From: Candidatus Krumholzibacteriota bacterium
Lineage (GTDB): Bacteria; Krumholzibacteriota; Krumholzibacteriia; Krumholzibacteriales; WJIX01
DNA length: 64,000 nt
Direction of reading: 5' to 3'
NCBI GenBank assembly: GCA_034520215.1
Contig: JAXHNR010000001.1
Span: forward strand, 1 to 64,000
This document shows positions 2,203 to 42,394 of the stretch, one piece after another. The translations under genes and the position numbers were made by a program. Below the pieces are notes generated by a model that saw nothing but the letters and a program-made list of their open reading frames with translations, was not told the origin of the DNA and did no database searches. Within the stretch, counting starts at the first letter, position 1. Every line of letters starts with the position of its first letter.

Positions 2203-3960
2203 ATGGGGATGAAAAATTACAGCCCGCATCGTGGCCTGCTGGTGCCGTTTGACCGGGATTTCTTTTCCAGTGATCATAGATTCACATATATTGGGAGAGG
2301 TGAACTGGGCGGCAAGGCCCATGGCCTGGCAGAGATGAAGGGTATCATAGATTCCGAGTTAGGCGGAAGGTTCGCCCCGGATCTGAATGCTTATATCCCC
2401 ACACTGACTGTAATAACAACGGAATATTTCGATCTCTTCATGAAGGAGAACGATCTCTATTCCATAGCGTATTCCGACAAGAGGGATGATCTGATAGCTC
2501 ATGCCTTTCAGAGAGCCCACCTTCCGGTAAGGTTGGTGGGGGATCTAAGGGCGCTGGTACATGAGGTTCATACGCCGTTGGCTGTGAGGTCTTCCAGTAT
2601 GCTCGAGGATGCCATGTTCGAGCCCTTCGCCAGTGTCTACGGCACCAAGATGATACCGAATAATCAGCCCGGAGTGGACAAAAGGTTCAGTAAACTCGTA
2701 GAAGCGGTTAAATATGTTTATGCATCCACCTTCTTCGGGGCGGCCAGAAACTACATGAAAGCCACCCATCACACCACCAGGGACGAGAAGATGGCTGTGA
2801 TTATTCAGGAGGTGGTCGGATCGAAGTTCGGAGAGAGGTTCTATCCGAATATCTCGGGAGTTGTAAGGTCTTATAATTTCTATCCAACCGGAAACGCTTC
2901 CCCTGAAGACGGTGTGGCGGATCTGGCGCTGGGGCTCGGAAGAACCATAGTAGACGAAGGGATGGCCTGGTCTTACTCTCCGGCTTATCCTAAAGCGGGC
3001 GCGCCGTTTAACTCCATAAACGACATGCTGAAGAATACCCAGACAGAGTTCTGGGCTGTGAATATGAAAGGCCCCGCCGCTTACGATCCCCTGAACGAGA
3101 CCGAGTATATGAATAAATACGATTTGACAGACGGCGAATATGACGGAACTCTGAAGAATATCGCCTCCACACTGGATTCTCAGGACGGCAAAATCGTTAT
3201 GGGGACAGGACGCAAGGGTCCCCGGATTATAGATTTCGCCCCGATTCTGAAGGCTGGAATCATACCCCTCAATGACCTTCTCAAGACACTTCTCAAGGCC
3301 TGCGAGGACAGTCTTGGAGTAATGGTGGAGATAGAATTCGCCGTCCGGATGGACATAAAAAGAGGAAAACCCGCCGAGTTCGGATTTCTCCAGATCAGGC
3401 CGATGGTGGTCTCGGAGTCCACAGTGGAGCTGGATGAAAATGAAATGAGGGGGGAAAAGGTTCTTCTGTCATCAGAGACGGTGCTGGGAAACGGAACTAT
3501 TGATTCCATAAGGGATATAGTCTATGTCGACCCGGAAAAATTCGATGTCAGGAAAACAGAGAAGATAGCCGAAGAAATGGATGCTCTTAACCGGTCGTTG
3601 GTCAAGGCGGGGAGGGAATACATTCTTGTTGGATTCGGAAGGTGGGGCACTTCCGATCCTTCAGGCGGAATTCCGGTGAAATTTGACCAGATATCAGGCG
3701 CAAAGGTGATTGTTGAGGCTTCTCTTCCCGGACTCAGCTTCCCCCTGAGCCAAGGTTCTCATTTCTTTCACAATGTTACCAGTTTCAAGATCTTCTATTT
3801 CTCCCTGGAGCACAGGGAAGAATCAGGTATTGACTGGGAATGGCTGCGGAACAATAATATTATAGAAGAGACCGAGCATTTGAAGCACGTCGAAACCTCC
3901 TCGCCTCTGCGGGTAAAAGTCGACGGTAGAAAGAGCATGGGAGTCGTGTTGCATGGATGA
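2203..3960 (+). CDS. PEP/pyruvate-binding domain protein (ATP-grasp-like, no phosphohistidine domain)
   Basis: A 585-residue protein built on the nucleotide-binding half of PEP synthase/pyruvate phosphate dikinase. GGKAHG (residues 36-41) is the family glycine-lysine motif, AVRSSSMLED (about 126-135) matches the VRSS..ED loop, and FLQIRPMV (about 395) is the family's E/xQxRP motif. The swivelling histidine domain and the PEP-utilising TIM barrel are absent, so it is not a complete synthase or dikinase. The last 180 residues (from VDPEKF) are shared in outline with the next protein and hold a GFGRWGTSDPSGG stretch. ATG at 2209 is an alternative start two codons in. It overlaps the next gene by 8 bases, indicating translational coupling. 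Substrate and partner are unknown; a phosphotransfer or ligase role on an acceptor is possible but not shown. Confidence 0.8.
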   Translation: MGMKNYSPHRGLLVPFDRDFFSSDHRFTYIGRGELGGKAHGLAEMKGIIDSELGGRFAPDLNAYIPTLTVITTEYFDLFMKENDLYSIAYSDKRDDLIAHAFQRAHLPVRLVGDLRALVHEVHTPLAVRSSSMLEDAMFEPFASVYGTKMIPNNQPGVDKRFSKLVEAVKYVYASTFFGAARNYMKATHHTTRDEKMAVIIQEVVGSKFGERFYPNISGVVRSYNFYPTGNASPEDGVADLALGLGRTIVDEGMAWSYSPAYPKAGAPFNSINDMLKNTQTEFWAVNMKGPAAYDPLNETEYMNKYDLTDGEYDGTLKNIASTLDSQDGKIVMGTGRKGPRIIDFAPILKAGIIPLNDLLKTLLKACEDSLGVMVEIEFAVRMDIKRGKPAEFGFLQIRPMVVSESTVELDENEMRGEKVLLSSETVLGNGTIDSIRDIVYVDPEKFDVRKTEKIAEEMDALNRSLVKAGREYILVGFGRWGTSDPSGGIPVKFDQISGAKVIVEASLPGLSFPLSQGSHFFHNVTSFKIFYFSLEHREESGIDWEWLRNNNIIEETEHLKHVETSSPLRVKVDGRKSMGVVLHG

Positions 3961-6900
3961 CAAGAAGAATATTTCGGATAACCTGATCCAGTCCTTCCGT
4001 GAACGGGAAAAGGAGCTGAAATGCCTCTACAGGATCGAGGAGATCCTTAAAAAATCCGGAAAGGAAAAGCAGCAGGTTTACGACGAAATTATAGAAGCTA
4101 TTCCGTGGGGCTGGCAGTACCCCCAGTACTGTATGGCAAGGATTACCATCGGCACCGATGTTTACCAGCCTCCGGGTTTTGAGGAAACCCCCTGGGTACT
4201 GGAAGCAGATATCATGGTTCAGCAGAAGAAGGCTGGAGAGGTTGCGGTATACTATACCAGGGAGGTGTCCGGGGAGGACCAGGGCCACTTTCTCAAACAT
4301 GAAAAGAGACTCCTCGAAGCGATAGCGGACAGGCTGGGCAGTCATATCCTTTACATGCAGCTTGAGGAAGCTCCTGACGGTGAAGTCAGCCGCGAACAGA
4401 AGGATGAATCCAGACAATGGCAGGTTATCCTTAATCTTCTCAGACACACTGACAGGAATCTGCACGCAACCCTCTGCGAGAAGATGCTGAATCATCTGAA
4501 CTGGAGCGGTATTGCTGAAGTGGAGGAGATAGAATCGGGTTGTCTCGGAAAGAACCGGACAATGGACAATGAATTGAGCGGTGAAGTAAATCAGCCCGGA
4601 GAGAGACAGAAGATCGATTTATGCGATGAGACATGTGATAAGATATTCCGTGTCGCCGCCAAGCACTTCACCGACAGCAGGATACTTAATTACCTTCAGA
4701 AGTGGATAGCTGACGATAAGCTCAAATTCCTTGCCCACGTTGCCAACAGGAACCTGACGTTGCCTGAGGTGATATCAGCTGTCAGGCGCTACCGCGATAT
4801 TGCCGGCGAGGGGGTGGAACTGTCCAATGTGGCGAAAAAAGGGGTGGTAGTTTCTCTGATAAGGAAGTTCTTCTCCAGCCAGCTGAATTATATAAGAATT
4901 GCCAAGAATTACTTTTCCATCGAAGATTTTTTCAAGATTATAGACAGCATAATTTACACCAAGGACAGCCGGGGAAGACTGGGCGGCAAGAGCGCTGGAC
5001 TTTTTCTGGCTGAGAATATTATAAGGAAGTCAAAAGATTCAAAGGATCTCTTTAAGGAAATAAAGACGCCTAAAAGCTGGTATATTACCTCTGATGTTCT
5101 ACTGGGATTTCTGAAGTACAATAACCTGGATGAAATCATGGAGCAGAAGTACAAGGATATAAGACAGGTGCGTATGGAGTACCTTTACGTGGTAAGAACA
5201 TTCAAGAACGGAAGTTTCCCTCCGGAGATAGTTCAGATGCTCTCGATGGCCCTGGATGAATTCGATGAAAAGCCCTTGATAGTGAGATCTTCCAGTCTTC
5301 TGGAAGACAGCCTGGGGGCGGCCTTCTCGGGTAAGTACAAAAGTCTGTTCCTGGCCAACCAGGGCAGTAAGAGGCAGCGGCTGGAGGACCTGATGGACGC
5401 CATCGCGGAGGTGTATTCTTCCACTTTCGGGCCTGATCCGATACAGTACAGGGCGGAGAGGAACCTTCTCGACTTCAACGAAGAGATGGGGATAATCATA
5501 CAGGAGGTAGTGGGAAACAGGATAGGGGATTATTTCCTTCCCGCTTTTGCCGGCGTGGCTTTCAGCAGGAACGATTTCAGATGGTCGCCCAGAATCAAGA
5601 GGGAAGATGGATTGATGCGGATGGTCCCCGGGCTGGGAACCAGGGCAGTGGACAGGATAAGTGAGGATTACCCGGTACTGGTGGCCCCCGGACAGCCCTC
5701 GCTGAAGGTGAACGCTACCCCGGATGAAGTGGTTTACTACTCTCCCAGAAAACTCGATCTGATTAACCTCCGGACTAAATCTTTCGAGACGGTGGATATT
5801 AAGGAGCTGCTGAAAAAGCATGGGCGGGAGCTTCCTCTGTTCAGCAAGATGGTATCCAGATATGAGGAAGGCCATCTGAAGACTCCTCTGGCGATGAATA
5901 TCGATTTTGAGAAGGATGACCTGTTGGTTACTTTCGACGGTATGATAAAGAAGACCAGATTGGTCGAGCAGATGGACGGGGTACTTCGAATGCTCTCAGA
6001 CAAGCTCGAGACATCCGTGGATGTGGAGTTCGCCCATGACGGAGAGGATCTCTACCTTCTGCAGTGCAGGCCGCAGAGTTTCTCTGAGGACAGTGCTCCG
6101 GCGGCGATTCCGAAGGATATCTCCGAAGAGAGAATGCTCTTTTCCGCTCACCGCTATATTTCCAACGGGCTGGTTCCGGACCTGACACACATCGTCTACG
6201 TCGACCCCGAGAAGTATTCACAGCTTTCCAGCAGGGAAGAGATGGCAGAGGTGGGAAGGGCTGTCGGCGAATTGAATAAGGTGCTTCCCAAGCGCGGGTT
6301 CATACTGATGGGGCCGGGAAGGTGGGGAAGCCGCGGTGATATAAAGATGGGTGTCAGCGTGACTTATTCCGACATAAACAACACCGCCGTTCTTACTGAG
6401 ATAGCAAGAAAAAAGGGCAACTATATGCCCGATCTGTCATTCGGGACTCACTTTTTCCAGGACCTGGTGGAAGGGCAGATTCGGTATCTACCCCTTTACC
6501 CTGACGAAGAAGAGAACGTCTTTAATGAACGCTTTCTTCTTGGCTCCAGGAATATTTTGTCTGAAATCGTTCCTCAATATTCGCATCTGGGAGATGTAAT
6601 AAAACTGATCGATCTGCCCGAAGTAACTGACGGGCTCATCCTGAGGGTTCTAATGAATGCCGAACTCAACGAGGCGGTCGGTATACTCGCGGAACCGGAT
6701 AAGAAGCAGATAAGGGAAGGGGTTCAGGTGGAGGACCATGATCTGCCCGCGGAGAAGCACTGGCTGTGGAGGTTGAGAATGGCGAAGCATATAGCTTCCG
6801 AGGTCGACCCGGAGCGTTTCGGTGTAGAGGGATTCTATGTTTTCGGAAGTACAAAGAACGCCACGGCAGGCCTGAACAGCGATATAGATGTCCTTATACA

Positions 6901-8395: not shown

Positions 8396-8700
8396 TTCTC
8401 TAATAGCTGTATTTGCTGTAATCTTTCTATCGGGGGCCGATTACCAGCCTGCCGGGAAAATCCAACGCTCTTCCCGATAAGCATTTTTCAGGTGAATTGC
8501 CCTGCCACCCGCGTCTTAAGTGTCTGTTCATGTCCGCTTTTACTGCCGATGTGGTAGAAAGCCGCTGGATGCTGGATGAACACGCGCTCTTCATCTATAA
8601 ACTGTATACAGCAAATGAGTTATCAGCAAAGATAGTGGAGACTCTGAGCGTGTCGGAGTAAGCGTTTCTGAAGATTCAATATCTAAAAAAAAATAATGGT
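8396..8700. other. Intergenic stretch with one small doubtful frame
   Basis: About 300 bases between the MITE and the promoter region of the DUF4236 gene. No protein family is recognised. The only frame worth noting is the 43-codon one at 8530-8661, listed separately. The sequence looks like decayed or unconstrained spacer. Confidence 0.5.
8530..8661 (+). CDS. Possible small protein or gene fragment, 43 aa
   Basis: An ATG-to-TAA frame reading MSAFTADVVESRWMLDEHAL and ending ELSAKIVETLSVSE. It is not recognised as any family and has no convincing ribosome-binding site just upstream. The composition is protein-like, and the sequence could be a leftover of a longer gene. It may be chance. Confidence 0.2.
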   Translation: MSAFTADVVESRWMLDEHALFIYKLYTANELSAKIVETLSVSE

Positions 8701-17491: not shown

Positions 17492-19425
17492 TGAAAGCTT
17501 TAAGGACAAGCGGTCTGGTCACTTCTCATTTAGTCATTATGCTTCTTTTATCGATCCCCGTTTTTGCAGGACAGATGGGTGTCTCTGAGGGGCACGATCT
17601 TGACAGGTTATGGGCGAGGGCGGAAAAAGAGCTCGACCCTTCCGGCGAAGATGCTGTTCTGCTTCTGGAGAGCAGGCATATTTCTATTCTCGAAAACGGA
17701 TTAAAGCGCGCGCGGGTACATAGCGTTGTATGGATAGGGACCGACCGCGGCGTGCGGGAATACGCCGATCTGCGGATTCCCTATAACACTGCTTCTTCGA
17801 GTTTAAAAGTAATAAAACTGAGAACGTGGCGTGACGATAAATGGTGGCCGGATGAGAAGGAGATAAGCTCCACCGCGGTCGTAAAAACACTTCCGTTCGG
17901 ACTAACCGGAGCGGATGATTATACAGATATGCGCGAGGTGATGCTTCTCCACGACGGCGTTGAGATTCCCTGTATTATCGAGACGGTATATGAGATAGAA
18001 GAGCCGCGCGGATCGGAAAAGGGTTGTGAAGGGTTGTGGGTATTCCCCCGGAATGACCCGGCAGCTCTGGTAGAATACAGTGTTTCAGTTCCGGAAGAGG
18101 GGGTTTTTAATTTTTCGGGCGGAAACGGCGCCCCTGAACCCGAAATGATCTCAGGCAGCGGAGAAGCTAAAACATATATCTGGAGAATGGAAATGACAGG
18201 CAGTCTCGGACTGCCCCGTATATCTGATTCCGCTGATTATTATCCCTATGTAGTATGGTCAACTTGGAAGAGCTGGAATGAGCTTGGCAAGAAGGTTCTT
18301 TCGAGCTTTGACAGCGCGGCCGGATTGACTGAGGAGCTTACGGACACTCTGGCTGAGAGAACAGAATACGAGCCGAGTTCAGCCGCGAAAGCCCTAGCCG
18401 CGGTTGAACTTGTAGGTGAAAAGACCCGCGGCATTCATTACGACTCCAGCTTCTGGTTTCTATCCCCGCGTCCCGCGAAGCGCACCTGGGAAACCGCATA
18501 CGGCCACTCTCTTGACAGGGCTGTTCTTGCCGCGGCGCTTATGCGTAAAGCCGGGCTGAATGCTCAGCCGGTGTACCGTTCGAAGGGTTTTCGCCCGATT
18601 GATACCGGCGTTCCGGGACTTTCCAGGTTTAAGAGGATTGGACTCTATGTGACAGGCGGCGATTTTCAGGCCTTTTACGAGCCGTATGAGGGAAAGCTGT
18701 ACGAAGGATCCGGCAAATTCACGGGCCGGGTTGTCTTTGAGCCGGCGAGCGGAGAACTTCCGGGAATGCGGAAGGTTATGTGTGATTCCCAGACTGTTAG
18801 CGGATTGGATTTGGTTCTTACCATCAAACCAGGTGACGGCGGAAACTGGACGGGCAAAGGAGAATACAGGGCGGAAGGTTTGTTCAGTCCCTATGATGAA
18901 ATGACAGGATCGGGTTTCGAAGCTCTGAATTTTTTAAGAAATACGGTCAGCTCTATGCTCGAGGGGGCAAAGGTGAGTGGTTTTAATCCCCGGATTTTTA
19001 CGCCCTCGCTTGTCAGTACGGCCTTTGAGTTTGAGTTGGAAAGCAGAGATCAGGACCGGCATGGACGAGAGCGGTTTATAATCGGAGATCCCGAGGGAAG
19101 TATACTCAACAAACTTTCATCGGGGATATATCTTTACCAGGAGAGCAGGACTTCACCTGTTCTCCTGCGGGGAAAGTTTAAACAGCGAATCTGTCTCAGG
19201 ATTAAAACGGGCGGCAGGGAAATTGTCCGTCTGCCCAAAGAGAGGGAGATAGACAATGAAGCGGGGCATTATTCTCTCAGCGCGGGAAATAAAGACGGCT
19301 GGATTACTGTCAGCCGCGAACTGATATTAAAAGTGAAGACAGTATCTGGTGAACTCTGGCCTGAGCTGAAGGCGCTGCTGATCGAGGAGGAAGATCCGGC
19401 GGGCAGAACTGTTATGATAAGGTAA
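17491..19425 (+). CDS. Paralogous exported DUF3857 protein with degenerate transglutaminase site
   Basis: ATG 17491 shares its A with the stop of the upstream gene. A signal peptide (SHLVIMLLLSIPVFAGQ) precedes a DUF3857 region (residues about 60-240) and a transglutaminase-like region (about 270-400). Where the upstream protein has SGVCKDIAGML this one reads YGHSLDRAVLAAAL, so the nucleophilic cysteine is replaced and enzymatic activity is unlikely by this mechanism. Later alignable parts (GLNAQPVYRS) keep the fold. A catalytically dead partner beside an active paralogue suggests a pair that works together, for example as binding or regulatory subunit; that is inference. The intergenic gap to hutH is 65 bases, so readthrough is possible. 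Confidence 0.8.
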   Translation: MKALRTSGLVTSHLVIMLLLSIPVFAGQMGVSEGHDLDRLWARAEKELDPSGEDAVLLLESRHISILENGLKRARVHSVVWIGTDRGVREYADLRIPYNTASSSLKVIKLRTWRDDKWWPDEKEISSTAVVKTLPFGLTGADDYTDMREVMLLHDGVEIPCIIETVYEIEEPRGSEKGCEGLWVFPRNDPAALVEYSVSVPEEGVFNFSGGNGAPEPEMISGSGEAKTYIWRMEMTGSLGLPRISDSADYYPYVVWSTWKSWNELGKKVLSSFDSAAGLTEELTDTLAERTEYEPSSAAKALAAVELVGEKTRGIHYDSSFWFLSPRPAKRTWETAYGHSLDRAVLAAALMRKAGLNAQPVYRSKGFRPIDTGVPGLSRFKRIGLYVTGGDFQAFYEPYEGKLYEGSGKFTGRVVFEPASGELPGMRKVMCDSQTVSGLDLVLTIKPGDGGNWTGKGEYRAEGLFSPYDEMTGSGFEALNFLRNTVSSMLEGAKVSGFNPRIFTPSLVSTAFEFELESRDQDRHGRERFIIGDPEGSILNKLSSGIYLYQESRTSPVLLRGKFKQRICLRIKTGGREIVRLPKEREIDNEAGHYSLSAGNKDGWITVSRELILKVKTVSGELWPELKALLIEEEDPAGRTVMIR

Positions 19426-38387: not shown

Positions 38388-38464
38388 GGGCGATTAGCTC
38401 AGCTGGTCAGAGCACCTGCCTTACAAGCAGGGGGCCACTGGTTCAAGTCCAGTATCGCCCACCA
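38388..38464 (+). tRNA. tRNA-Val (anticodon TAC)
   Basis: Cloverleaf of 77 bases: acceptor GGGCGAT/ATCGCCC, D-arm GCTC..GAGC, anticodon stem CCTGC/GCAGG with loop CTTACAA (anticodon TAC, Val), T-arm ACTGG-TTCAAGT-CCAGT, discriminator A and encoded CCA (38462-38464). All arms pair. Confidence 0.97.
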
Positions 38465-38774
38465 TTTATTTCCTTATATTACAATAAGATAGAGCTTGCA
38501 GGCCTTATGTAGTGATGGTGTGTTTTTTACAATGTCAACACATTGCAAGGTTAAAGGAGGATTATGCAACTTCTTATACCAGCAGATATACGCTAAGCCT
38601 ACAGGCTTGGCCTCCGGCACATTCGGTAAAGCCGAATGGCGCAAACCTGCGAAATGGTTATATGAAATAGCGCGCAGAAGTATACAATTGCTTGAGCTGA
38701 AATTATGAATAGGGTATGATGATTTTTTATAAGAAAGGGACTCAGCATTTGTTTTATAACCAGGGATGCAATTA
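38465..38774 (+). other. Hairpin-rich spacer between tRNA-Val and the lipoprotein
   Basis: About 310 bases with no supported gene. It holds AAGCC-TACA-GGCTT (near 38596) and CATTCGG-TAAAG-CCGAATG (near 38620), two small perfect hairpins. A 70-codon frame here (from 38496) looks unlike a real protein. It may be the decayed edge of an inserted element next to the tRNA. Confidence 0.4.
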
Positions 38775-40028
38775 ATGCGAAAGTTTTGTATTTTATCTGT
38801 AATTGTTTTTATTGTATCTCTTTCAGTGCTTAACTGCAGTGAAGATGAAGTGACCAGCCCTGATAATGGAGGCAATGATCCGACGGTTAATATAATCAGT
38901 CCGTCAGATGGCGAATCATTTGTAGAAGGTGCTACCATTACTTTCACTGGAACAGGGGAAGATTTTGAGGGGAACGTTTTACCGGACAGCGCACTTATCT
39001 GGACATCGGATATTGATGATACCATAGGAACCGGTACATCATTTGATAACGATAGTCTTTCTATGGGTGATCATGTAATAACGCTTACGGGCATTGACAC
39101 TGATGGAAGAACCGGTTCGGAGAGCATAACGATAGAAGTGACTATGCCGGAAGGTTTTGTATTGATCCCAGCTGACACCTTCACGATGGGCAGCCCGGCT
39201 GATGAGCCCTCTAGAAGCAGTAACGAGACTCAGCATGCAGTGACCCTGACAAATGATTACTACATGTCTGAGACGGAGATAACAAACCAGCAGTATGCCG
39301 ATATGGCACAGTGGGCGTATGATAACGGTCACTGCACGGCTACGAGCTTAAGTCTGCAGGATAACCTGGATGGTTCGATGGTGGAACTTCTTGACATGGG
39401 CGACAGTGACTGTGAAATTTCTTTCAGCGGCGGCACATTCACCGTTGATTCCGGCAAAGAGGATCATCCAGTTCTGGAAGTATCCTGGTTCGGGGCTGTC
39501 AGCTACTGCGATTGGCTGAGCATGAAGGCAGGGCTAACGAGTGCTTATAACCACAGCAGCTGGGAGTGTAACGGACATGATCCCTACAATGCTGAAGGGT
39601 ACCACCTTCCGACAGAGGCGGAGTGGGAGTATGCGTGCCGAGCAGGGACTCAAACTCCGTTTAATACGGGCAATTGTCTTGATGCTGGGACAGAGGCGAA
39701 CTATGACGGTCGCTATCCCTATTCTGGCTGTCCCTCCGGACCTTACGAAGTATGGACTGTGCCAGTGGGCAGTTATCCAGCCAATAGCTTTGGTCTGTAT
39801 GACATGCACGGAAATGTATTGGAGTGGTGCAACGACTGGTATGGAAGCTACAGCGGAGATGAGACGGACCCTGTTGGCCCCGCTTTTGGAAGTTCTCGCG
39901 TTCTTCGCGGCGGCGGTTGGGGCATCTATGCACACTACTGCCGTTCAGCGCTCCGCGCCGGGACCACCCCGTCGGGCACGCACTACAGCTTCGGTTTTCG
40001 TGTTTGCCGCGCGGTGTTTGCCCGCTAG
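38775..40028 (+). CDS. FGE/SUMF1-domain lipoprotein with DGR-like variable C-terminus
   Basis: ATG 38775 (9 bases inside an alternative at 38766) begins MRKFCILSVIVFIVSLSVLNC, a lipoprotein signal with Cys21 acylated. A disordered link (SEDEVTSPDNGGND) and an Ig-like segment (residues about 35-125) precede the formylglycine-generating-enzyme fold from about 130 (FVLIPADTFTMGSPADE, EITNQQYADMAQWAYD, YHLPTEAEWEYACRAG, GLYDMHGNVLEWCNDW). The C-terminal 45 residues read RVLRGGGW-6-CRSA-L-R-4-PS-6-GFRVCRA, the typical frame of DGR C-type-lectin targets in which the numbered positions vary. 13 of 17 codons at those positions end in C, as expected when an AAC-rich template is mutated at adenines. 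It likely displays a ligand-binding surface on the outer membrane. Confidence 0.85.
   Translation: MRKFCILSVIVFIVSLSVLNCSEDEVTSPDNGGNDPTVNIISPSDGESFVEGATITFTGTGEDFEGNVLPDSALIWTSDIDDTIGTGTSFDNDSLSMGDHVITLTGIDTDGRTGSESITIEVTMPEGFVLIPADTFTMGSPADEPSRSSNETQHAVTLTNDYYMSETEITNQQYADMAQWAYDNGHCTATSLSLQDNLDGSMVELLDMGDSDCEISFSGGTFTVDSGKEDHPVLEVSWFGAVSYCDWLSMKAGLTSAYNHSSWECNGHDPYNAEGYHLPTEAEWEYACRAGTQTPFNTGNCLDAGTEANYDGRYPYSGCPSGPYEVWTVPVGSYPANSFGLYDMHGNVLEWCNDWYGSYSGDETDPVGPAFGSSRVLRGGGWGIYAHYCRSALRAGTTPSGTHYSFGFRVCRAVFAR
39900..40028 (+). repeat. Candidate DGR variable region (VR)
   Basis: The 3' end of the FGE-like lipoprotein gene. Invariant framework codons (GTT CTT CGC GGC, TGC CGT TCA GCG, CCG TCG, GGT TTT CGT GTT TGC CGC) alternate with 17 codons, 13 of which end in C (GGC, ATC, CAC, TAC, CTC, GCC, ACC and others). 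This is the pattern left by adenine-specific mutagenic retrohoming from AAC triplets. No template or reverse transcriptase is in the window. The stretch just after the stop (40029-40180) contains GGTCC...GGACC and an eight-T tract, and could be the homing end signal, but that is inference. Confidence 0.6.
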
Positions 40029-40244
40029 TCTCCATGGGTCCCTTGGATTCTTGGACACTTGGACCTTGGAATTTTTTTTGGGGGGTGCGCTACTTCGATA
40101 TAACAAGAGCATTTCCGCATCGGAGCGAAGCGCGGCTGCCCTGCGGGAGATCCTGTCGGATGTCTCGGGGATGCCTTAAATGTTATCCGGCATGCTTTAT
40201 TAATAAATTGTCAGAGCTAAATGGCCATAGTGAGAGGAAGAACA

Positions 40245-40703
40245 ATGAAAAATGCAGCAGTTATTATTTGTATTATTGTTCTATGCTTTGTTGCTCAGAA
40301 TGTTCTAGCACATTGTGAGATACCATGTGGTATTTATGATGATGGGATGAGAATAAAATTAATACGAGAGCATATCGCTACAATCGAGAAATCGATGAAG
40401 ATGATAACTGATCTTACAAGTGTAGAGGAAAAGAATTATAACCAGATAGTACGATGGATTAATAATAAAGAAAATCATTCGAACGAACTCCAGCATATTG
40501 TAACTCAATATTTTATGACTCAAAGAATAAGCCCGATGTCGAATGATAAACCAGAAGACAGAGAAGAAGGCTTAAATAAGCTAGCTTTGTTACATTCATT
40601 GCTTGTTTCTGCCATGAAAGCAAAGCAATCAATTGATTTAAAACATATTGCGGACATGAGGGCGATTGTGGATAAATTTGAAAAGTTGTATTTCAAGGAT
40701 TAG
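40245..40703 (+). CDS. sodN: Ni-superoxide dismutase with Sec signal peptide
   Basis: ATG 40245 follows GAGAGGAAGAAC. The first 22 residues (MKNAAVIICIIVLCFVAQNVLA) form a signal peptide with a VLA cleavage site. Cleavage would leave HCEIPCGIYDD at the new N-terminus, the nickel hook HCxxPCGxY: His1 amine and imidazole, Cys2 and Cys6 bind Ni. The remaining 120 residues are helical (EKNYNQIVRWINNKENHSNELQHIVTQYF), as in the four-helix NiSOD subunit. In Streptomyces and cyanobacteria a separate peptidase matures the hook; here signal peptidase could do it, giving a periplasmic enzyme. The gene is clearly AT-richer than its neighbours, suggesting transfer. Confidence 0.88.
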   Translation: MKNAAVIICIIVLCFVAQNVLAHCEIPCGIYDDGMRIKLIREHIATIEKSMKMITDLTSVEEKNYNQIVRWINNKENHSNELQHIVTQYFMTQRISPMSNDKPEDREEGLNKLALLHSLLVSAMKAKQSIDLKHIADMRAIVDKFEKLYFKD

Positions 40704-40899
40704 TAAAGCACGCAGTATATCAAATCTGTTCGCGGCTGCGCGTTGGCACCCGGGCTGTAGGAGCCTCAAATTGCCAATGCGGGGAATTTTATTTAGTTTG
40801 ATTTCAAATAATAAACTTTAATAACTGCAACTTAGATAGATGGTTGCGGCGTTATCGGGATAATCTTATAAGAATCGATAGATGGTGAACCCGAAACAG

Positions 40900-41689: not shown

Positions 41690-42394
41690 ATGAAACGTTA
41701 CCTGCTTATCGCTATGGGACTCGTATTCGCTGTCACCTTCATATCCTGCTCCGAGACCTCAACCAGTCCGGAAGATTACAGCTCACTGAAAGAGTTGGAT
41801 TCTATGGATGAAAGCGTTGAAATCACGGGAAGAATGAATGAAGGCGCGATGAAGCGCCAGATGAACGGCATGAAAGGCAAGGCTCTTCCTCCCGGCGGCA
41901 TGACCATCGCCGAAATCGCGGAGGATGCCGGCTTCACCCTGCTGCTTGCGGCCGTAGGGTACATAGCCGAGATGAATCCCGACAGCCCGCTCATTGCGGG
42001 ACTGCTCAACAACGACCAGTATACCGTGTTCGCGCCGACCGATGATGCGTTCCTTAACCTGGTCGCCGCGGTCGAAGATCTGCTCGATCCGGACATCCTC
42101 GCTGAAGAGGGTCCGTTCGCGGCGATAGATGATCTGCTCGGCGCCGGAACGATAGAGGCAGTGGTAAGTTACCACGTTACAGAAGGTCGCCGCGCCTCCA
42201 ACAGCGTAGTTCCGCGTAGGCATGACAGGACCATCATGACCCTGCTAGAGGGAGCGACATTCTCAGTGTCTACCGACGCTATGATCACAGCGGTCGGCAA
42301 CACCGCCTACATTGTCACCCCTAACATCTCCGCCAGCAACGGCATCATCCACGTGATAGACGCCGTAATACTGCCGGTGGACCTCGGTCTGTAG
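41690..42394 (+). CDS. Fasciclin (FAS1) domain lipoprotein
   Basis: A 234-residue lipoprotein. MKRYLLIAMGLVFAVTFISC is a lipoprotein signal with Cys20, followed by SETSTSPED, a start like that of the FGE-like lipoprotein. Residues about 75-234 form one FAS1 domain: IAEIAEDAGFTLLLAAV, then YTVFAPTDDAFLNL (H1 motif), VSYHVTEGR, and NGIIHVIDAVILP (H2 motif). FAS1 domains mediate adhesion. Codon use is GC-rich compared with the adjacent AT-rich sequence. The gene has its own strong promoter and a following hairpin, so it is a single-gene unit likely expressed at high level. Confidence 0.9.
   Translation: MKRYLLIAMGLVFAVTFISCSETSTSPEDYSSLKELDSMDESVEITGRMNEGAMKRQMNGMKGKALPPGGMTIAEIAEDAGFTLLLAAVGYIAEMNPDSPLIAGLLNNDQYTVFAPTDDAFLNLVAAVEDLLDPDILAEEGPFAAIDDLLGAGTIEAVVSYHVTEGRRASNSVVPRRHDRTIMTLLEGATFSVSTDAMITAVGNTAYIVTPNISASNGIIHVIDAVILPVDLGL

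Follow-up and report, generated by a model that had tools for sequence, protein, structure and literature searches.

An orphan lipoprotein gene of Candidatus Krumholzibacteriota with a probable DGR-type variable region appears to be carried as an integron-type cassette

How does a gene that resembles the target of a diversity-generating retroelement (DGR) come to stand alone, with no reverse transcriptase (RT) or template beside it? This question is raised by a lipoprotein gene in the first 64,000 nucleotides (hereafter the window) of contig JAXHNR010000001.1 from a Candidatus Krumholzibacteriota assembly. Until now, DGR targets were known inside DGR loci, as paralogues at a distance in the same genome, and as remnants; the gene described here appears to travel alone as a cassette, and two well-known bacterial diversity systems, the DGR and the integron, appear to meet in it. 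The features on which the argument is built are collected in Table 1.

Table 1. Features of the lipoprotein locus, with positions counted from the first base of the window
Feature	Position	Strand	Basis or remark
tRNA-Val, directly upstream of the mini-array	38388..38464	+	ARAGORN, Rfam
Upstream attC, of a preceding, lost cassette	38572..38665	+	Covariance model R1, 30.2 bits, E 6.5e-5
Apparent integron-type gene cassette, 1525 bp	38658..40182	+	G^TTATATG of upstream attC to G^TTATCC of own attC
Lipoprotein CDS, start 38766 or 38775	38766..40028	+	FGE-sulfatase / C-type-lectin-fold domain, N-terminal signal
Very probable DGR-type variable region, frame RVLRGGGW..CRSA.R..PS..GFRVCR	39897..40028	+	NNC loop codons; length and frame as G027 template
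24-codon loop segment GGC ATC TAT ... AGC TTC	39921..39992	+	
Conserved non-coding tail past the stop, candidate homing/initiation signal	40029..40060	+	Alignment with G005:C27, G012:C12, G005:C30
T8/G6 run	40068..40085	+	Not conserved in three related genes (alignment)
attC of the lipoprotein cassette, gene-oriented	40096..40190	+	R1, 47.7 bits, E 4.1e-9
Ni-superoxide-dismutase-like gene, next cassette	40221..40703	+	Pfam PF09055, E 1.8e-29
Degenerate attC (5' half) past the Ni-SOD-like gene	40716..40780	+	Local alignment with L309:6966-7090

The predicted product (417-420 residues) carries a lipoprotein-type signal with its cysteine (..SVLNC) at the N-terminus and matches the FGE-sulfatase family of Pfam (PF03781, E 1.3e-49). 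An AlphaFold2 model (mean pLDDT 74.8, with a low-confidence N part) was matched by Foldseek to FGE (1e-18) and to TvpA of Treponema denticola (2y3c, 2.8e-17), and TvpA was also matched at the sequence level (E 6e-24), confirming the likeness to this protein that a preliminary description of the locus had proposed. Both the Pfam domain and the TvpA matches place at the C-terminus a fold of the C-type-lectin type, as in DGR targets, and the model is best explained as that of a surface lipoprotein of TvpA/FGE type. Catalytic FGE function was considered and rejected: of the two active-site cysteines of human FGE, Cys336 and Cys341, one is present in the alignment while the position of the other falls in the loop segment, and with only one of the two the lipoprotein is therefore unlikely to be an FGE-type enzyme.

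The last 43 residues of the protein read RVLRGGGW-GIYAHY-CRSA-L-R-AGTT-PS-GTHYSF-GFRVCR-AVFAR*, a fixed framework interrupted by loops. The preliminary description had counted 13 of 17 loop codons ending in C; frame, framework and codons are as it described them, with 13 of 16 on recount. By comparison, C-ending codons make up 24.5% of the gene body and 24.3% of the window ORFs, and 4.9 would be expected in the loops given their amino acids (p = 1.4e-5 if codon usage is taken from the gene itself, 1.2e-4 if it is taken from the window). Within the same 38 codons the proportion differs between loops (13/16) and framework (8/22; Fisher p = 0.007), and the loop codons are compatible with AAY->NNY mutagenesis beyond what codon usage provides, as is seen in DGR targets. 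Among 106 FGE-type C-termini from relatives and public contigs, all tested alike, the gene ranks fifth for loop C-bias (p = 1.9e-5), adjoining template-proven targets of the public loci L116 (4e-5) and L089 (6e-5). The other FGE gene of the genome, a paralogue that lacks the 3' tail discussed below, displays no significant NNC bias (p about 0.075-0.08).

These values bear on an alternative in which the gene is an ordinary FGE-domain cassette that was never acted upon by a DGR and whose loops owe their C-richness to codon preference or to a recent transfer. FGE-domain proteins are common, most members of the phylum are without a DGR, and the GC content of the region is high overall (65% in the variable region versus 49% in the gene body); moreover, a stretch of a FAS1 gene some 2 kb away (42245-42300) equals the lipoprotein loops in its count of C-ending codons, so that C-richness of the loops is not in itself unique. 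However, a bias that is limited to the loops and spares the framework, in a gene ranking beside proven targets, is not what codon preference would be expected to produce. As a separate observation, the FAS1-domain-like lipoprotein gene has 41% C-ending codons throughout, against a window mean of 24%, and possibly encodes a highly expressed surface protein.

DGRs acting on the same protein family were found in relatives. A complete DGR is present in G027:C252 (L053), a genome of the same class, where it comprises an FGE C-terminus, an accessory ORF, an RT with GNLTSQ and YMDD motifs and an AAC-rich template, and 15 of the 16 mismatches between template and variable region lie at template A. Its target frame (RGGSW..CRSA.R..GFRVAR) is like that of the window gene and its 24-codon loop segment is equal in length, whereas it differs from the window in that the DGR is complete, the 3' tail is another one and attC matches are lacking. 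The template of this DGR overlaps the end of the RT gene, and its accessory ORF resembles an HRDC protein (putative). In the public relatives, mismatches at template A amount to 17/17, 19/19 and 11/11 for L116, 17/18 for L089 and 18/22 for L189. Furthermore, a decayed DGR lies beside an FGE target in G013:C227 (L272/L311, ~18771-19313), a genome of the same order, in which a 31-nt template fragment (7/7 mismatches at A) and a second fragment survive together with an RT remnant that is interrupted by a stop codon; the two separated template fragments both display adenine mismatches only. Elsewhere, the locus L273 (G030:C247:106863-113452) is a tandem row of several FGE genes whose loops vary; it has no attC match, and a DGR-type RT was not recognised in that genome. 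When foreign templates were laid over the window gene, the non-A bases of variable codons fitted at only 10 of 18 positions for the G027 template (4.9 at random; reached in 184 of 20000 trials) and at 9 of 19 for that of L116 (reached in 1112 of 20000). We infer the DGR origin of the loops, since this gene has no template against which adenine-linked differences could be read; taken together, the codons, the fold, the related DGRs and the 3' tail indicate that 39897-40028 is very probably the variable region, of DGR type, of a lipoprotein resembling TvpA.

The tail that follows the stop codon, GCCCGCTAGTCTCC, was compared with that of other lipoprotein genes. A lipoprotein gene from another family of the order (G005:C27) is 87% identical in DNA to the window over 39992-40058, a stretch of 67 bases made up of the 3' coding end and approximately 30 nt past the stop, and the same stretch is recognisable in G012:C12 and G005:C30. 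All four genes that share the tail have the NNC bias (window, 6e-5; G005:C27, 5e-6; G005:C30, 0.004; G012:C12, 0.017). In L116, a Chlorobiaceae locus (CAJEXI010000004.1), the template match goes no further than the stop codon, yet three targets have about 60 nt of sequence in common beyond it; shared DNA that extends beyond the template end is as expected for a target-side signal. These targets lie at 193-388, 3804-4004 and 6736-6936 of L116, and a further, degraded template-like copy is present at 8537-8642. The natural reading of the window tail is that it, too, is a target-side homing signal, for which it is a candidate. The preliminary description had sought such a signal in a GGTCC/GGACC hairpin and a run of eight T; the idea of a 3' signal is retained for the ~30 nt conserved in three other lipoprotein genes, whereas the T-run is not conserved and the hairpin is weak (z -0.01 in a 101-nt context, -1.9 in a 66-nt piece) and was rejected as a signal because shuffled sequences do as well as it in the longer context. 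A candidate IMH-like sequence at the 3' end would thus consist of the coding end and post-stop tail conserved in four genes, with a weak hairpin and no template for comparison. In viral contigs the long pattern of the tail was not found, and the short one matched three times, by chance, within a gene for a DnaJ-domain protein. The sharing of the bias by all four tail-bearing genes, and a conservation of non-coding DNA that an ordinary cassette would leave without explanation, further weigh against loops that never met a DGR, and we consider that alternative unlikely.

The genome to which the window belongs (2.60 Mb in two contigs, 97.3% complete) was searched for the missing machinery. The absence of an RT and a template from the window, noted in the preliminary description, holds: tblastn found no RT in the 64 kb, there are no RT or template remnants there, and the genome search for a template was negative. 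The check that it had put forward, a template next to an RT elsewhere in the genome, yielded neither in the two-contig assembly. RVT_1 and, by tblastn, the G027 RT had no match in the genome at E<=0.001, and a DGR RT profile of four sequences had none even at E<=10, while recovering as expected G027 and G080, both of which had supplied members of the profile. Likewise, no second copy of 39880-40110 and no copy of the template predicted for the loops was found in the genome. Since the assembly contains no RT and no template copy, an active DGR in this genome is unlikely and is not supported, and the lipoprotein gene is an orphan target. Of the proposal of a DGR-type variable region, what stands is the region itself, by its codon pattern, fold, template-bearing relatives and conserved tail, while an active DGR in the genome is not supported.

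An active element might nevertheless mutate the gene in trans from an unassembled gap, an episome or a phage. About 3% of the genome may be missing, given the completeness of the two-contig assembly, the loop codons still match the template pattern well, and remote DGR targets are known from Treponema denticola and cyanobacteria (PMC4891356, PMC7517822). However, the assembly is devoid of an RT down to the permissive profile threshold and of a template copy, of the phylum's RT loci that were examined only that of G027 was of DGR type, and the tail-sharing genomes G005 (95% complete) and G012 (90% complete) are also without a DGR-type RT; we therefore judge such remote activity to be quite improbable. 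Phage records searched for the gene gave no match by DNA and, by protein, only distant FGE-domain proteins.

The preliminary description had overlooked that the gene appears to be an integron-type cassette. A simple hairpin finder for attC proved too strict, missing real sites, and a covariance model (R1) was used instead, constructed from eight attC sites of the genome's own integron, none of them from the window; being specific to this lineage, the model would overlook attC sites of distant types. On the 64-kb window it produced exactly two matches, one on each side of the lipoprotein gene and both on the + strand. In a search of 80 genomes of the phylum, the downstream site (40096-40190) was 84% identical in DNA to two sites of the genome's own integron (C1:875142 and C1:885914). 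Additionally, the first 18 nt of the cassette, TTATATGAAATAGCGCGC, are identical at L309:9155, in that integron, and at L275:4076, in a lipoprotein cassette of G005. The degenerate half site past the Ni-SOD-like gene was not found by R1 at E<=10. The protein of this second cassette has a signal-peptide-like start and scores below the cut-off of the NCBIfam model sodN. No integrase is present in the cluster, as tblastn of both recombinases against the window gave nothing significant, and a LarE-like neighbour gene has no good match in the same-genus genomes G001-G003. At least two attC sites thus flank single-gene cassettes, as in integron cassettes and CALIN; because of the flanking sites, the shared cassette start and the half attC past the Ni-SOD-like gene, 38658-40182 appears to be a cassette in an integrase-free cluster, in which the attC sites are observed and excision by the recombinase at G^TT, with which the shared 18-nt cassette starts agree, is predicted from sequence. 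The interval 40098-40187 had also been considered as a DGR remnant (the end of an RT or accessory gene), and this was abandoned since two copies of it sit in the attC array beside the recombinase.

A complete DGR might, alternatively, have existed at this place and decayed, with RT and template deleted and the attC sites coincidental. Decay of this kind seems to have occurred in G013:C227, where template fragments and an RT remnant remain beside the target, and RT-less strains of T. denticola keep targets that are regarded as remnants (PMC4891356). In the window, by contrast, such remnants are lacking, the attC of the gene and the Ni-SOD-like cassette occupy the DNA that follows it, and chance would not be expected to place attC sites on either flank at precisely the spacing of a cassette; decay in place is thus very improbable. 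The lone occurrence of a target without machinery is instead explained if the target travelled alone as a cassette.

The genome's own integron-like array (G000:C1:872184-~891300; L309, L313) lies ~0.83 Mb from the window cassettes and has at least eight attC-like sites. It begins, next to tRNA-Glu, with a tyrosine recombinase (C1:872184-873089) whose closest solved relative in the PDB is IntI4 (E 2e-45); this protein passes NF040815 (site-specific tyrosine recombinase/integron integrase), scores below the cut-off of TIGR02249 (227 versus 265 bits) and appears to be without the IntI-specific insert. In the array, single genes alternate with sites of 90-180 nt that start with ..TAACA and end with AAATGTTAT, which is the anatomy of attC as read from the sequence. 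Its cassettes include a PD-(D/E)XK restriction nuclease, an M78 peptidase and an ORF6N protein.

A similar arrangement was observed in relatives. In G005:C30, the tail-bearing lipoprotein gene comes after three attC sites, which themselves lie behind a recombinase 67% identical to that of the window genome. In G012:C12, an attC (E 1.5e-5) lies after the tail-bearing gene, and half sites follow two of its neighbours. Tail-bearing, NNC-biased lipoproteins in or beside attC arrays therefore appear to recur in three genomes of one order. R1 gave no attC match at the tail-sharing gene G005:C27, and none at 47 other FGE loci of the phylum and 78 public loci, indicating that FGE genes in general are not flanked by attC.

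We consider it likely that a TvpA/FGE lipoprotein gene written by a DGR was captured, without template or RT, as an integron cassette, and that its loops are now frozen. The loops would have been written by adenine-directed mutagenic retrohoming of a DGR elsewhere, and the target gene alone would have been captured as CDS plus attC; it would now reside in a two-cassette, integrase-free cluster beside tRNA-Val, from which an IntI-type recombinase could move it or express it as an already diversified binding protein. Its loops would remain frozen, barring the action in trans of a DGR that the assembly does not contain, and the protein would present an unchanging binding face at the surface of the cell; the conserved 3' coding end and the ~30 nt past the stop codon would represent the former homing signal, retained within the cassette. 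If true, hypervariable binding proteins would spread between cells without the mutator, which would explain orphan targets. Furthermore, RT-centred DGR surveys, which miss remote targets by design (PMC8144416), would on this suggestion miss cassette-borne targets as well, and the finding allows the integron arrays of bacteria at large to be searched for variable genes of DGR type. It is also conceivable, although distinctly unlikely, that the integrons of this order store DGR-diversified binding lipoproteins whose homing tail is kept and which are re-diversified in trans by the DGR of another cell, phage or strain, thereby coupling retroelement mutation to cassette shuffling.

Among known systems, TvpA of Treponema denticola resembles the window gene product in being a lipoprotein with an FGE/C-type-lectin fold and C-terminal variable loops. 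Strains of this species without RT and template keep their target genes, which are regarded as remnants (PMC4891356). In contrast to the window, the T. denticola template is known and its mismatches lie at A, the phylum is a different one, and the available text of the same paper describes no integron cassette for the targets. The FGE-type targets of L116 likewise resemble the window gene in sharing DNA past the stop, but have RT and template in cis and no attC match. In the openly accessible literature searched, no published case of a DGR target as an integron cassette was found, and the available text of PMC3521204 only speculates that DGRs might co-opt the integron system. The cluster itself is like CALIN, i.e. 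attC clusters without an integron integrase (PMC9024848), in having two strong attC sites, single-gene cassettes and no integrase nearby. It is unlike them in that its cargo is a lipoprotein of the DGR-type variable kind, and in that the recombinase of the genome is IntI/XerA-like and falls below the curated IntI cut-off.
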